Source of the DNA: Roseospira goensis
Lineage (GTDB): Bacteria; Pseudomonadota; Alphaproteobacteria; Rhodospirillales; Rhodospirillaceae
Direction of reading: 5' to 3'
Assembly (NCBI RefSeq): GCF_014197795.1
Contig: NZ_JACIGI010000017.1
Span: 1 to 64,000, forward strand
Length of the DNA stretch: 64,000 nucleotides
In this document: piece by piece, positions 3,588 through 38,375 of the stretch
How the letters are laid out: every line of letters starts with the position of its first letter
Position numbering within the stretch: position 1 is the stretch's first letter
Made by a program: the position numbers and the translations under genes
The notes under the pieces: generated by a model
Databases searched by the model: none
Told to the model about the DNA's origin: nothing
The model's input: only the letters and a program-made list of their open reading frames with translations

Positions 3588-4640
3588 ATGGTCACCCACA
3601 CGACACCCCTCAAGGACCTGGACGCCCGCTCGCGGGAGGTGTTTCAGCGTCTCGTCGACACCTTCGTCGAGACCGGCGAGCCGGTGGGCTCGCGCACGCT
3701 CTCGCGCATGATGTCGGTCAGCCTGTCGCCGGCCACCATCCGCAACGTCATGGCCGACCTGGAACACGAGGGCCTGCTGTACGCACCGCATGCCTCGGCC
3801 GGCCGCCTGCCCACCGAACTGGGCCTGCGCATGTTCGTCAACGGGCTGCTGGAGGTGGGCGCGCTGGACAGCGACGAGCGGGTGCGCATCGAGACCATGT
3901 GTCAGGCCGCCGGGCGCAGCCTGGAGGGCATGCTGGAGGAGGCCACGACCCTGCTGTCGGGCCTGTCGCGCTGCGCCGGGCTGGTGATCGCGCCCAAGAC
4001 GGACGCCGCGGTCAAGCACATCGAATTCGTCCACCTGGGGCCGGGGCGCGCCCTGGTGGTCATGGTCGGGGCCACCGGGGTGGTCGAGAACCGCGTCGTC
4101 GAGGTGCCGCGCGGGGTGCCGCTGTCGGCGCTGGCCGAGGCCACCAACTATCTGAACGCGCGGTTGTGCGACCGTACGCTGGACGAGGCGCGCGAAGCCA
4201 TCCTGGACGACCTGGAGTCGGACCGCAGCCTGCTGGATGACCTGTCGCGCAAGGTGGTGGCGGCCGGGCTGGCGACCTGGTCCGACGACAAGCCCGGCGC
4301 CGCGCTGATCGTGCGCGGTCAGGGCAACCTGTTGACCGAGGTGAGCGCGGCCCGCGACCTGGAGCGCATCCGCGCCCTGTTCGAGGTGCTGGAGACCAAG
4401 GAGCAGGTGCTGCGCATGCTCGACCTGGTGATCGGCGCCGAGGGCGTGCAGATCTTCATCGGCGCCGAGAACGACCTGTTCACGCTCGCCGGCTGCTCGC
4501 TGATCGTGGCGCCCTACCAGAACAGCCGCGAGGAGATCGTGGGCGCCATCGGTGTCGTCGGCCCCACGCGCATCAACTACCGGCGCATCGTGCCGCTGGT
4601 GGACTACACCGCCAAGGTGATCGGCCGCCTGCTCGGCTGA
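3588..4640 (+). CDS. hrcA: Heat-inducible transcription repressor HrcA
   Basis: HrcA represses class I heat-shock genes by binding CIRCE, and GroEL keeps it active. The 350-residue protein has an N-terminal winged helix (LDARSREVFQRLVDTFVETG, then GEPVGSRTLSR and LSPATIRNVMADLEHEGLL), the GRLPTELGLRMFV segment and the C-terminal dimerisation domain ending IVPLVDYTAKVIGRLL. I see no CIRCE inverted repeat upstream, so autoregulation is not evident; the target is presumably groESL elsewhere. An overlapping ATG at 3575 is in another frame. grpE follows 57 bases later, probably in the same operon. Confidence 0.96.
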   Translation: MVTHTTPLKDLDARSREVFQRLVDTFVETGEPVGSRTLSRMMSVSLSPATIRNVMADLEHEGLLYAPHASAGRLPTELGLRMFVNGLLEVGALDSDERVRIETMCQAAGRSLEGMLEEATTLLSGLSRCAGLVIAPKTDAAVKHIEFVHLGPGRALVVMVGATGVVENRVVEVPRGVPLSALAEATNYLNARLCDRTLDEAREAILDDLESDRSLLDDLSRKVVAAGLATWSDDKPGAALIVRGQGNLLTEVSAARDLERIRALFEVLETKEQVLRMLDLVIGAEGVQIFIGAENDLFTLAGCSLIVAPYQNSREEIVGAIGVVGPTRINYRRIVPLVDYTAKVIGRLLG

Positions 4641-34473: not shown

Positions 34474-34884
34474 ATGGCCACCGTTGCCCCGCCCGCCGAC
34501 CCCGAGGCCGATCCGCGCGTCAAGGCCGTCTTCGACGACATCCGCGCCACCCGCGGTACCGACTTCATCAACAACGTCTGGCGCTATCTGGCGTTCGACC
34601 CGGCGCTGCTGGAGAGCGTGTGGGCCGACATCAAGGCGGTGATGGCGACCCCGTCGGCGCTCGATCCCAAGACCAAGGAGATGCTCTACGTCGCCGTCTC
34701 GATCGCCAATGGCTGCGACTACTGCACCCACTCCCACACCGCCGCCGCCCGCACCAAGGGCATGACCGACGCCGAACACGCCGACCTGCTGCGCGTGGTG
34801 GGGACCGCGTCGCGCCTGAACGCCTTGCTGAACGGCCTGCACGTCCCGGTGGATCCGGCATTCGAGCGTGCCCCCCGGCCCTGA
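34474..34884 (+). CDS. Carboxymuconolactone decarboxylase/AhpD-like protein
   Basis: A 136-residue all-helical protein of the AhpD/CMD superfamily. The redox motif CDYCTHSH near residue 88 is the CxxCxxxH signature of peroxidase-type AhpD-like proteins, preceded by DPKTKEMLYVAVSIANG. AAAGGA sits eight bases before the ATG. Members with this motif act as alkyl hydroperoxidases or general thiol-disulfide proteins. It lies just upstream of the arsenic operon but is separated from it by a regulatory gap and is not a known ars gene. Confidence 0.85.
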   Translation: MATVAPPADPEADPRVKAVFDDIRATRGTDFINNVWRYLAFDPALLESVWADIKAVMATPSALDPKTKEMLYVAVSIANGCDYCTHSHTAAARTKGMTDAEHADLLRVVGTASRLNALLNGLHVPVDPAFERAPRP

Positions 34885-34974
34885 GCCCCCCGTCCGCTGG
34901 GTGATCCGCGGCCCTCCGCCGGGAAAGCGTTGCGGGGGGCGTCCGAAGATATTTCGATGACTGTGAAAATGAGC

Positions 34975-35011
34975 TGGACATCCAGCCTCAATTCGACGAA
35001 TATCGAAATAT
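34975..35011 (+). promoter_or_regulatory. arsRC promoter and probable ArsR operator
   Basis: A candidate -35 TGGACA (34975-34980) and -10 GAATAT (34998-35003) are 17 bases apart. The predicted start of transcription falls on or next to the ATG at 35010, so the mRNA may be leaderless; no ribosome-binding site is visible. The palindrome ATTCGACGAAT (34991-35001) lies between the boxes, and ATCGAAATAT (35002-35011) is the exact inverted copy of ATATTTCGAT at 34949-34958. These are good candidates for repressor sites. Confidence 0.6.
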
Positions 35012-35897
35012 GGATCCGACGCTGATCGCCGAGATGATGGCCGCCCTGGCCGCCGAACCCCGCATCCGCGCCCTGCAGGCGCTGGTGCGGGCGGGGGCGA
35101 AAGGCGTGCCGGCCGGGGACCTGGCCCGCCGGTGCGGCGTCGCGCCCTCCACCATGTCCTTCCATCTGACCCAGATGCGCACCGTGGGTCTGGTGGAAAG
35201 CCGGCGCGAGGGGCGCACGCTGCACTATGTCGCCAACCTGATCGCCCTGGAGGCCCTGGGGCACGGCGTCATGACGGGGTTCTGTCCGGCCCTGCTGCCG
35301 GGCGCCGCTGCCTTGCCCACCATCGCGCCTGGAGACCCCGCCATGCCCGCCAACGATGGACACCGGCCCCTGAATGTCCTGTTCCTGTGCAGCGGCAATT
35401 CGGCCCGCAGTCAGATCGCGGAGGCCATCCTGACCCGCGAGGGCGCCGGCCGGTTCCAAGCGTTTTCCGCCGGGTCCCACCCGCGCGAGACCGTCGACCC
35501 GCAGGCCCTGGCGGCGTTGCGCCGGGCCACCCTGCCGACCGCGGGGTTGCGGCCCAAGAGCTGGGACGACTTCGCGCGCCCGGACGCGCCGCGGATGGAT
35601 TTCGTCTTCACCGTCTGCGATGACGCCGCCGGCGAGACCTGCCCGGTCTGGCCCGGTCAGCCGATGACCGCCCACTGGGGGGTGCCCGATCCGGTCGCCT
35701 TCACCGGGTCGGACGCCGCCAAGGCCGCCGTGTTCAATGACACGGTCCGCATGCTCTACACCCGGATCGCGATCTTCGTTCAACTTCCGGTCACTTCTCT
35801 GGACCGACTCGCCCTTCAGCACAAGGTCGATGCCATCGGGGCCATGCCCCGGGACCCCGAGGCCACCGCGCCCGTCGCGGCGTCGGGGCCCGCGTGA
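35010..35897 (+). CDS. ArsR-ArsC fusion: arsenic repressor joined to arsenate reductase
   Basis: Residues 1-95 are an ArsR/SmtB winged helix (LAAEPRIRALQALVRAGAKG, then DLARRCGVAPSTMSFHLTQM and GLVESRREGRTLHYVAN). Residues ~118-265 are an ArsC of the low-molecular-weight phosphatase type, with the P-loop VLFLCSGNSARSQIAEAIL (Cys x5 Arg/Ser), an internal Cys pair (VCDDAAGETCPVW) for thioredoxin-coupled recycling, and HWGVPDP. The ELCVCDLC arsenite site of classical ArsR is absent. Only single cysteines near 46 and 92 remain in the ArsR part, so sensing must use other residues. It heads the operon arsRC-Δgap-arsJ. Confidence 0.9.
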   Translation: MDPTLIAEMMAALAAEPRIRALQALVRAGAKGVPAGDLARRCGVAPSTMSFHLTQMRTVGLVESRREGRTLHYVANLIALEALGHGVMTGFCPALLPGAAALPTIAPGDPAMPANDGHRPLNVLFLCSGNSARSQIAEAILTREGAGRFQAFSAGSHPRETVDPQALAALRRATLPTAGLRPKSWDDFARPDAPRMDFVFTVCDDAAGETCPVWPGQPMTAHWGVPDPVAFTGSDAAKAAVFNDTVRMLYTRIAIFVQLPVTSLDRLALQHKVDAIGAMPRDPEATAPVAASGPA

Positions 35898-35932
35898 CGG
35901 CCGGTCCGGACGCCACCCCCAAGGATCGCCTG

Positions 35933-36013
35933 ATGACTCTGCGGATCGGCATCAACGGCTTCGGCCGCGTGGGCCGGCTGGTCGCCAACATTGCAGGGGC
36001 GCTGCCATCATGA
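35933..36013 (+). pseudogene. Remnant of the arsenic-operon glyceraldehyde-3-phosphate dehydrogenase gene
   Basis: AAGGATC followed by ATG opens a 26-codon frame, MTLRIGINGFGRVGRLVANI then AGALPS and TGA. The first 17 residues are the unmistakable NAD-binding N-terminus of GAPDH (IGINGFGRVGRL). The remaining ~310 codons are gone. The stop overlaps the arsJ start as ATGA. In known arsenate-resistance operons a dedicated GAPDH makes 1-arseno-3-phosphoglycerate, which ArsJ exports, so this is the right gene in the right place, deleted down to its start. The remnant could still couple translation to arsJ. Confidence 0.88.
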
Positions 36014-37245
36014 GCGACGTCAAGGCCTATGCCGCCATCACCGCGGCCTACTGGGCGTTCACGCTGACCGACGGCGCCCTGCGCGTGCTGGTGCTGCTGC
36101 ACTTCCACACCCTGGGCTATGGCCCCCTGGAGGTGGCGACCCTGTTCCTGCTCTACGAGGTCATGGGCATCGTCACCAATGTTGCGGGCGGCTGGCTGGG
36201 GGCGCGCTACGGCCTGCGGCTGACGCTGCTGCTGGGGCTGGGGGTGCAGGTGGTGGCCCTGGTCATGCTGTCGCTGGTCCGGCCCGACTGGGCGGTGGCG
36301 CTGTCGGTGGCCTACGTGATGGTCGCGCAGGCGCTGTCCGGCGTGGCCAAGGACCTGACCAAGATGAGCAGCAAATCCGCCGTCAAGCGGGTGGCGGGCG
36401 AGGGCGCGCTGTTCCGCTGGGTGGCGATGCTCACCGGCTCCAAGAACGCCCTCAAGGGTGTCGGCTTCCTGCTGGGCGGGGTGCTGTTGCAGACGCTGGG
36501 CTTCCAGGGTGGCCTGTGGCTGATGGCGGGGGCCCTGGCGCTGGTGCTGGTGGCCTCGCTGGTCACGGTTCACGACACGCTGGGCCGCGCCAAGGAAAAG
36601 GCGCTGGGCCGCCACCTGTTCAGCAAGACGCGCGAGATCAATCTGCTCTCGGCGGCGCGGATCGTGTTGTTCGCCTCTCGCGATGTGTGGTTCGTGGTCG
36701 GCGTGCCCCTGTTCCTGTACGAGCGCATGGGCTGGAGCTTCGCCGGTGTGGCGGGGTTCCTGGCGGCGTGGATCATCGGGTACGGCCTCGTGCAGGCGGC
36801 GGTCCCGGCCCTGCTGCGCGGCACCACGACTGCCGCGACGGCGGCCAAGGCGACGCGGCTGTGGGGCTTCGTGCTGGCGGCCGTGCCGGCGCTGATCGCG
36901 GCGGCGCTGACGCCGGACCTGCTGGGCGGCTGGGTCGACGACCGGGTGGCGCTGATCGGCGGGCTGGCCGTGTTCGCCCCCCTGTTCGCGATCAACAGCG
37001 CGCTGCATTCGTACCTGATCGTGGCCTATTCCGACGCCGACAAGGTCGCGCTCAACGTCGGCTTCTACTACATGGCCAACGCCGTCGGGCGCCTGGGCGG
37101 CACGGTCCTGTCCGGGCTGGTCTATCAGCTTGCCGGACTGGCGGCCTGTCTGTGGGTCTCGGCCGCGCTCCTGGTGGCGGCGGCGGCGGTGGCCCTGGCC
37201 CTGCCGACGACACCGCAGGCGGACCGGCGCCCGCTGGCGGTGTGA
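36010..37245 (+). CDS. arsJ: Organoarsenical efflux MFS transporter ArsJ
   Basis: A 411-residue major-facilitator protein matching ArsJ. It starts MSDVKAYAAITAAYWAFTLT, with DGALRVLVLLHFHTLGYGPL, LYEVMGIVTNVAGGWLGARY, and the characteristic GVAKDLTKMSSKSAVK loop and NALKGVGFLLGGVLL. ArsJ exports 1-arseno-3-phosphoglycerate, made by GAPDH from arsenate. Together they give arsenate resistance without reduction. The start overlaps the GAPDH remnant by ATGA. Without an operon GAPDH, the pump must rely on the housekeeping enzyme or on leftover function. Confidence 0.92.
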   Translation: MSDVKAYAAITAAYWAFTLTDGALRVLVLLHFHTLGYGPLEVATLFLLYEVMGIVTNVAGGWLGARYGLRLTLLLGLGVQVVALVMLSLVRPDWAVALSVAYVMVAQALSGVAKDLTKMSSKSAVKRVAGEGALFRWVAMLTGSKNALKGVGFLLGGVLLQTLGFQGGLWLMAGALALVLVASLVTVHDTLGRAKEKALGRHLFSKTREINLLSAARIVLFASRDVWFVVGVPLFLYERMGWSFAGVAGFLAAWIIGYGLVQAAVPALLRGTTTAATAAKATRLWGFVLAAVPALIAAALTPDLLGGWVDDRVALIGGLAVFAPLFAINSALHSYLIVAYSDADKVALNVGFYYMANAVGRLGGTVLSGLVYQLAGLAACLWVSAALLVAAAAVALALPTTPQADRRPLAV

Positions 37246-37478
37246 CGCGGGTCGCGACGCCGCGCCGGCCGGCGCGGACCGGCACGGCGGGCGGGGCCGT
37301 TGCGGGGCGGGACTCCGGTGCGGAAAAAAGTGTCGCCCGCCCCCTTCCCATGGCACCGACCCTGTGATACACACCCTCCCCCGGCCGGGCCGCCCATCGG
37401 GGCACACGGCCGAAGCCGGGGTCGCGCACGGCGGTGGTTGATCACCGATCCGGGCCGGGCAAGCGGCCACTCCCCTGC

Positions 37479-37552
37479 TGGGGGATAGTTTAACGGTAGA
37501 ACAGCGGACTCTGACTCCGTCAGTCCAGGTTCGAATCCTGGTCCCCCAGCCA
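37479..37552 (+). tRNA. tRNA-Gln (anticodon CTG)
   Basis: A full cloverleaf. Acceptor TGGGGGA pairs with TCCCCCA. The D arm is GTTTAACGGTAGAAC and the anticodon arm is GCGGA/CTCTGAC/TCCGT, with CTG in the loop. The T arm is CCAGGTTCGAATCCTGG, and CCA is encoded (37550-37552). It reads CAG codons. The first gene downstream is a tyrosine-recombinase remnant, so this gene is the likely attachment site of a former island. Confidence 0.96.
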
Positions 37553-37819: not shown

Positions 37820-38057
37820 GTGTCCTGGTTTCTGGATGCGTTTGGCGACGTGCCGGACCCTCGGGCGTCAAACGCGCGGCATGATCTCCTTGAAGGTCTG
37901 ACGATTGCCCTGATGGCGTCGATCTGCGGGGCGGAAGACGGCTCGGATTTCGGGGATTTCGCGGTCGACCGCGAGGCCCTGTTCCGCGAGTTTCTGACCC
38001 TGACGCACGGGATCCCGAGCCACGGCACGTGTTCCCGGATCGTCCTGGAGCGCGGCG
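37820..38057 (+). pseudogene. N-terminal fragment of an ISAs1-type transposase
   Basis: MSWFLDAFGDVPDPRASNAR begins a typical ISAs1/H-repeat transposase N-terminal region, followed by HDLLEGLTIALMASICGAED and LTLTHGIPSHGTCSRIV. The frame then ends at 38077. The rest of the protein continues in another frame further on, after a large internal loss. Confidence 0.82.
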
Positions 38058-38375
38058 GGATGACCTGTTCCGACTGAAGACCAACCGGCCCGCCCTGCAT
38101 GACATGATCGCCGGATCCTTCACCGCGCCCGACGGGACGGCCGACCTGCCGGTCGCCGAGACCACGGACGCCGATCACGGTCGCATCGACGTGCGCCGGG
38201 CCATGGTGGGCACCGATCTGTCCTGGCTGCGCGGCACCAAGACGTCCTGCGCCGAACCGGCCCTGAACGTCCTTCGGCGCGCCACGCCGGGCATCTCCAT
38301 TCGCCGCAAGCGCAAGCGCAAGCGTTGCGGATGGACCAACGAGTTCGCAAGAACCATCATCGGCCAAATGCGATG
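38050..38375 (+). pseudogene. Middle and C-terminal fragments of the same ISAs1-type transposase
   Basis: In a different frame from the upstream fragment: DDLFRLKTNRPALHDMI, then ETTDADHGRIDVRRAMVGTD, and after another loss ALNVLRRATPGISIRRKRKR followed by CGWTNEFARTIIGQMR. These match the catalytic-core strand (ETTxxxHGRIExR) and the C-terminus of ISAs1-type transposases. Between them about half of the domain is missing. The RKRKRKR stretch comes from a CGCAAG repeat (about 38303-38326). No intact inverted repeats are recognisable. Confidence 0.75.

Follow-up and report, generated by a model that had tools for sequence, protein, structure and literature searches.

Arsenate efflux through a paired GAPDH (glyceraldehyde-3-phosphate dehydrogenase, the product of gap or gapdh) and ArsJ is said, in papers that cite the work, to have been described in Pseudomonas aeruginosa DK2 by Chen et al. 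in 2016. We report here on an arsenic (ars) operon of Roseospira goensis, carried by a 64,000 nucleotide stretch of contig NZ_JACIGI010000017.1 (positions 1 to 64,000 of the forward strand, hereafter "the window"), in which only a short remnant of gap lies between arsRC, a fusion of an arsR-type and an arsC-type gene, and arsJ. The gapdh-arsJ pair is also present in Halomonas GFAJ-1, and excerpts of PMC5930303 report that the Halomonas ArsJ homologue together with gapdh made E. coli arsenate-resistant. The window's ArsJ is of the same family (550.2 bits against the ArsJ efflux permease model NF033734, cut-off 400), it too is encoded in an ars operon, and a sister species has an intact gap at the corresponding place; unlike the described pairs, the window's dedicated GAPDH is down to 26 codons and no ars-type GAPDH was found elsewhere in the genome.

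Two other described systems resemble parts of this locus. In the Vibrio cholerae var operon, arsR-varG-varH-arsJ, ArsJ is the main arsenate resistance determinant, without reduction and arsenite export, according to excerpts of PMC9601151, which also mention species that lack VarG. The var operon has a dedicated GAPDH and a phosphatase, whereas in the window's ars operon neither a VarG gene nor a separate VarH-like gene is seen and the ArsC-type domain is fused to ArsR. ArsR and ArsC are likewise joined in one polypeptide in Leptospirillum, Microbacterium and Sinorhizobium (excerpts of PMC6205960); the window's fusion differs from these in that the gap remnant and arsJ follow it and that neither acr3 nor arsB was found in the genome. 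Pairs of gapdh and arsJ and ArsR-ArsC fusions are already known, and species with ArsJ and no GAPDH have been mentioned in print (excerpts of PMC9601151). Searches of open-licence papers on ArsJ brought up no gap remnant beside arsJ, and none of the matches listed (10 of 40) for translational coupling and gene remnants concerned such a case.

The remnant (window 35933–36013, plus strand) consists of 26 codons and a stop, and reads MTLRIGINGFGRVGRLVANIAGALPS*. It is flanked by arsRC (35010–35897, plus strand; 295 amino acids) on its 5' side and by arsJ (36010–37245, plus strand), which encodes a 411 amino acid efflux permease of the major facilitator superfamily, on its 3' side. The remnant has its own start, a Shine-Dalgarno-like AAGGA that was apparently that of gap (35921–35925, plus strand, 7 bases 5' of the ATG), and a TGA (36011–36013) that overlaps the arsJ ATG at 36010 in the sequence ATGA (36010–36013, plus strand), exactly as the initial annotation had read it. 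Remnant residues 4–21 match the Pfam GAPDH NAD-binding domain Gp_dh_N (E-value 4.6e-5 against the whole library); the score of 24.1 bits lies under the curated cut-off of 31.7, as is expected because the matched stretch is only 18 residues long. The remnant has neither the catalytic cysteine region SCTTN nor the complete fold of a functional GAPDH, and it is all that adjoins arsJ in the window in place of a complete ars-type enzyme.

The origin of the remnant is made clear by its closest relatives. In a scan for ArsJ proteins with one genome per species, the best 80 of 558 confirmed loci were retained, and the closest of these are from Roseospira navarrensis (genome G033, locus L002) and Rhodospira trueperi (G036, L003), whose ArsJ proteins are each 91% identical to that of the window's genome (G000); the other 78 are 66% identical or less. 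In R. navarrensis the order is arsRC, an intact gap of 338 codons that includes SCTTN (L002:1232–2248), arsJ and acr3, and gap overlaps arsJ in the same ATGA. In R. trueperi the order is arsRC, a 25-codon remnant (L003:3927–4004, MPPRIGINGFGRMGRLAATVAGARP*) with its own start and ribosome-binding site, and arsJ, again with an ATGA overlap. The two remnants are 82.7% identical over 25 codons and differ in length by only 3 bases, and start, frame and ATGA are retained in both. Remnant codons 1–16 (35933–35980, plus strand) are 91.7% identical in DNA sequence to the equivalent part of the navarrensis gap, and the last ~9 codons (35981–36013, plus strand; junction at ~35980–35986) align, in a comparison with L002 and L003, with the GAPDH C-terminus through the original stop. 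At the level of sequence this confirms that the window frame is the product of an internal in-frame deletion of gap. The proposal in the initial annotation that the operon's GAPDH had been deleted leaving a short frame is thus borne out by the intact gap at the equivalent place in R. navarrensis; its description of the frame as the GAPDH N-terminus followed by a stop holds for codons 1–16 and fails for the tail, and a simple N-terminal truncation of gap is ruled out by that C-terminal alignment. A chance match of a 26-codon frame is ruled out by the intact navarrensis gap and the matching trueperi remnant in the same place. An assembly error is very unlikely, since R. trueperi, a separate assembly, has the identical junction and the two remnants, at 82.7% identity, differ too much to be one record copied twice.

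When the first 120 bases of the navarrensis gap are compared with its last 120, the longest exact repeat is CCGCATGG, found at positions 33 and 972, that is, 939 bases apart and in frame. The trueperi remnant is 78 bases long against 1017 for the intact gap, so that 939 bases are gone, a number equal to the spacing of the repeats; the window remnant has 81 bases, and its 3 extra bases adjoin the stop. Although the repeat by itself could be due to chance, its spacing equals the size of the deletion, and gap was therefore probably removed by a ~939 bp in-frame deletion between short direct repeats, one among its first codons and one among its last. The tails of the window and trueperi remnants share GGG and CCA codons as well as the junction, which suggests a single deletion.

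No second dedicated enzyme was found that might replace the lost one. The initial annotation had called for a search for another GAPDH, and a single one was found in the window's genome (98.64% complete, 81 contigs), of the housekeeping kind. R. trueperi also has one and R. navarrensis has two. With 378.5 and 370.6 bits, respectively, the single genes of R. goensis and R. trueperi stay below the cut-off of 450 bits set for the ArsJ-associated family, and the family search found none over that cut-off elsewhere in the window's genome. Among the seven genomes of the genus Acr3 is over cut-off in four, with only a 22.3-bit fragment in G034, and ArsB (PF02040) and aquaglyceroporins (MIP, PF00230) are found in none; Acr3 (TIGR00832) has no match in R. 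goensis or R. trueperi. ArsJ is thus the sole arsenic exporter detected in the two remnant genomes, in a search that covered Acr3, ArsB and aquaglyceroporins and did not extend to ArsP, ArsM or other routes. No close plasmid-borne ArsJ was found, as all 66 plasmid records with an ArsJ match were under 60% identity (66/66).

The reading we favour, to which we give a probability of roughly 0.6, is that gap was lost in frame between repeats, that its start was kept for the benefit of arsJ, and that ArsJ uses the housekeeping GAPDH or exports free arsenate. In an arsRC-gap-arsJ operon, the gene for the dedicated arsenate GAPDH was lost by an internal in-frame deletion of ~939 bp, and the leftover frame of 25–26 codons retains gap's ribosome-binding site, start codon and stop. 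We infer that ribosomes initiating at the old gap start pass to arsJ via the ATGA overlap, and it is because this overlap would carry them onward that arsJ expression is proposed to have survived the loss. Since the enzyme is cut to 25–26 codons the pump must work without a dedicated partner, and ArsJ would most likely export either 1-arseno-3-phosphoglycerate that the one housekeeping GAPDH makes or arsenate in free form. For V. cholerae, losing arsJ is most harmful at 1 mM As(V) and losing the dedicated GAPDH mainly so at 10 mM, and export of free As(V) has been proposed there (excerpts of PMC9601151).

Several points weigh against this reading. When mfs2 (arsJ) and gapdh were disrupted in a Halomonas strain without the acr3 operon, resistance to arsenate was abolished or severely reduced, a result that speaks for a dedicated enzyme (excerpts of PMC5930303), and the glycolytic Gap of V. 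cholerae acts on arsenate and was judged an insufficient replacement for the dedicated enzyme (excerpts of PMC9601151). The ArsC domain of the remnant species keeps its cysteines though no arsenite exporter was found, a pairing that the favoured reading leaves unexplained; the domain may serve sensing or another route. In GC-rich DNA an 8-base repeat can also be a chance occurrence. As arsJ retains its own Shine-Dalgarno-like site, the remnant may not be needed. Finally, in the arsJ DNA tree R. trueperi falls with R. navarrensis and not with the other remnant species. The grouping of R. goensis with R. trueperi is not rejected on arsJ (approximately unbiased test, p 0.139; 0.325 with codon positions 1 and 2), and a tree of the ArsJ proteins leaves the branching order of the three unresolved, so that a single ancestral deletion is neither proved nor rejected by the arsJ trees.

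Predicted anti-Shine-Dalgarno energies for the remnant's site are -5.2 kcal/mol in the window and -5.9 in R. trueperi, and those for arsJ's own site are -5.7 in the window, -8.6 in R. trueperi and -9.5 in R. navarrensis; arsJ's own site is thus weaker in the window yet not absent. In predicted RNA folds at the arsJ start, the mean unpaired probability of the Shine-Dalgarno region is 0.46 in the window, 0.35 in R. trueperi and 0.16 in R. navarrensis.

Loss of gap beside arsJ was also sought more widely. In three of the best 80 of 558 loci arsJ lies at the end of its contig (L034, L076 and L080); a gap match is present in 74 of the other 77 loci, and the three without one are R. trueperi (L003), L006 and L053. 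L006 (the same locus as L154 below) has GAPDH C-terminal debris (WYVNEW) at 3935–3990, out of frame and directly 5' of arsJ, which by its sequence is the trace of a separate gap loss; no gap trace is seen upstream of arsJ in L053. Among 318 genomes of the window's order, 78 carry arsJ over cut-off, at 80 places in total, and all 80 were examined with ~1.5 kb of upstream DNA for most of the first 34 places and ~3 kb for most of the others. L152 and L166 were excluded, as they have 110 and 61 bases upstream, which left 78 evaluable loci. A gap adjoins arsJ in 65 of these (in L110 and L178 it is cut by the contig start) and none adjoins it in 13. One of the 65, L181 (G310), has a gap whose N-terminus appears to be frameshifted shortly after a GINGFSRMGRLG-like start, which is either a sequencing error or early decay.

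The GAPDH family search was run on the 13 genomes with no adjoining gap and on R. navarrensis. Seven of the 13 have an ars-type GAPDH over cut-off elsewhere, on other contigs in G239, G240, G243, G244, G245 and G101 and ~1.6 kb upstream of arsJ in G173, and G236 (81% complete) has only a GAPDH C-terminal fragment. The search found an ars-type GAPDH nowhere in the remaining five, R. goensis, R. trueperi, G168, G305 and G312, the last being less sure because that genome is 88% complete. Four of the five have a clear gap scar beside arsJ: the mini-frames of R. goensis and R. trueperi, the C-terminal debris of G168 (L154), where the gap start is lost and AGAGGA precedes arsJ, and a fusion in G312 (L170), a member of another genus, whose arsJ begins MTAKIDINGFGRRDSNPLKNYA, with the GAPDH first codons MTAKIDINGFGR fused in frame to ArsJ. 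In G305 (L169) arsJ begins MTAELEHPLKNFA. The leaders of arsJ in L169 and L170 align with the leaders that precede gap in L174, L176 and L181, and arsJ of G305 therefore probably uses the former gap start. By start-rule calls gap overlaps arsJ by 17 bases in L174, 17 in L176, 11 in L181 and 4 in R. navarrensis, and 25 of the 136 loci that were scored have such an overlap (138 were tried, L011 being without a start call and L018 being discarded for a run-on frame; some genomes are in both sets). These loci, which represent three events, suggest that gap's start was retained where arsJ had been coupled to gap. We note that in L018 (2861–5245), from a Filomicrobium metagenome-assembled genome, gap and arsJ form one open frame, and that ambiguous bases, one of them in the linker, could hide a stop.

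Comparison among these relatives lends support to a role of the remnant as a translational starter for arsJ, through the in-frame fusion of gap leader and first codons to arsJ in L170 and through the gap/arsJ overlap in gap-bearing relatives. A broader and more tentative proposal, to which we lean less than halfway, is that ArsJ is now a stand-alone arsenate pump (for free arsenate or with the glycolytic GAPDH) and came to be so by a recurrent route in which an overlapped gap is deleted and its start signal kept; its two outcomes would be the coupled mini-frame of Roseospira and Rhodospira and the fusion to arsJ in the other genus.

The remnant might instead be a passive scar, with arsJ translated from its own Shine-Dalgarno-like site and the deletions recent, perhaps independent, and without time for decay. 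The slight preference of the arsJ DNA tree for R. navarrensis with R. trueperi fits two deletions at the same repeats, the residues conserved in the remnant are those already conserved in GAPDH, and codons 17–25 differ between R. goensis and R. trueperi at about the four-fold rate of arsJ (7/27, P 0.50). We nonetheless consider this explanation rather unlikely, as the junction and the GGG and CCA tail codons are common to both remnants, start, frame and overlap are retained in both species, and gap's start is retained in parallel in L170. Codons 1–16 differ at 6 of 48 positions (P 0.009 at the arsJ four-fold rate of 0.28; P 0.027 at 0.25); if one deletion predates the split of the two species, they are more conserved than that rate predicts, and if there were two recent deletions, their conservation is old GAPDH constraint.

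The initial annotation had raised three alternatives: ArsJ working with the housekeeping GAPDH, the remnant as a translational starter, and a decaying operon. Decay, in which the loss of gap came first and arsJ and arsRC have since ceased to be of use, is made improbable by constraint on both genes. The ratio of nonsynonymous to synonymous substitution rates (dN/dS) is 0.11–0.17 for arsJ over the three species pairs (0.16–0.17 in pairs with the window) and 0.22–0.25 for arsRC, both frames are open in both remnant species, and the operator-like repeat described below is retained. Absence of arsJ and of the operon from four of the seven genomes of the genus (G032, G034, G035 and G037) is what decay would leave. 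Of the 117 alignment columns in which 95% or more of 136 distinct gap-linked ArsJ sequences agree, the window's ArsJ deviates at 4 (113 kept), which is high in the range of the gap-linked set (median 0, maximum 5), but R. navarrensis with its intact gap deviates at 3, as does R. trueperi (114 kept). Derived ArsJ changes number 11 in the window against 3 in R. navarrensis (p 0.057), and 7 in R. trueperi against the same 3 (p 0.34), so that faster ArsJ evolution after gap loss is suggestive only. That the 25–26 residue peptide is functional in itself is highly improbable, for although the two species differ in codons 4–12 by 3 synonymous changes and no amino-acid change, and codons 1–16 fall under the arsJ four-fold expectation provided that the deletion is older than the split, the conserved part is the GAPDH NAD-binding motif, constrained before the deletion, 18 residues should not be able to form an NAD-binding fold, and only two sequences are known.

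The rest of the operon and its surroundings have few distinctive features. ArsRC matches HTH_metalloreg (55.3 bits, cut-off 55) and the low molecular weight phosphatase family LMWPc (55.8 bits, cut-off 23.2), and reaches 57.2 bits against arsC_pI258, under the cut-off of 174.3. It keeps the putative ArsC active-site motif, CSGNSAR with a VC...TC cysteine pair, and its cysteines are matched in the alignment with both relatives. A putative operator, the inverted repeat TTCGA-N6-TCGAA (34992–35007), was spotted by eye abutting the 5' side of arsRC; it is present in R. navarrensis and has 1 mismatch in R. trueperi. No Shine-Dalgarno-like site precedes arsRC (34988–35012; best energy 0.1 to 0.3 across the three species), and with the repeat so close to the ATG it is possible that the arsRC message is leaderless. 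A consensus promoter and terminator scan over 34700–37500 gave no match. Downstream of arsJ lie a tRNA-Gln (ctg) gene at 37479–37552 and a short frame at 37820–38077 that is presumably transposase-like.

Whether differences between the ArsJ proteins of GAPDH-bearing and GAPDH-less species decide the exported form is a question asked in PMC9601151, in the excerpts used here. As the dedicated GAPDH is present in R. navarrensis and missing from R. trueperi, and their arsJ genes are 91% identical in DNA sequence, the question of ArsJ cargo is directly testable in them. If the stand-alone pump proposal is true, closely related ArsJ proteins with and without GAPDH would constitute a natural experiment on that cargo. 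The gap scars also illustrate how an operon whose genes are coupled in translation can lose one of them while the gene that follows stays active.

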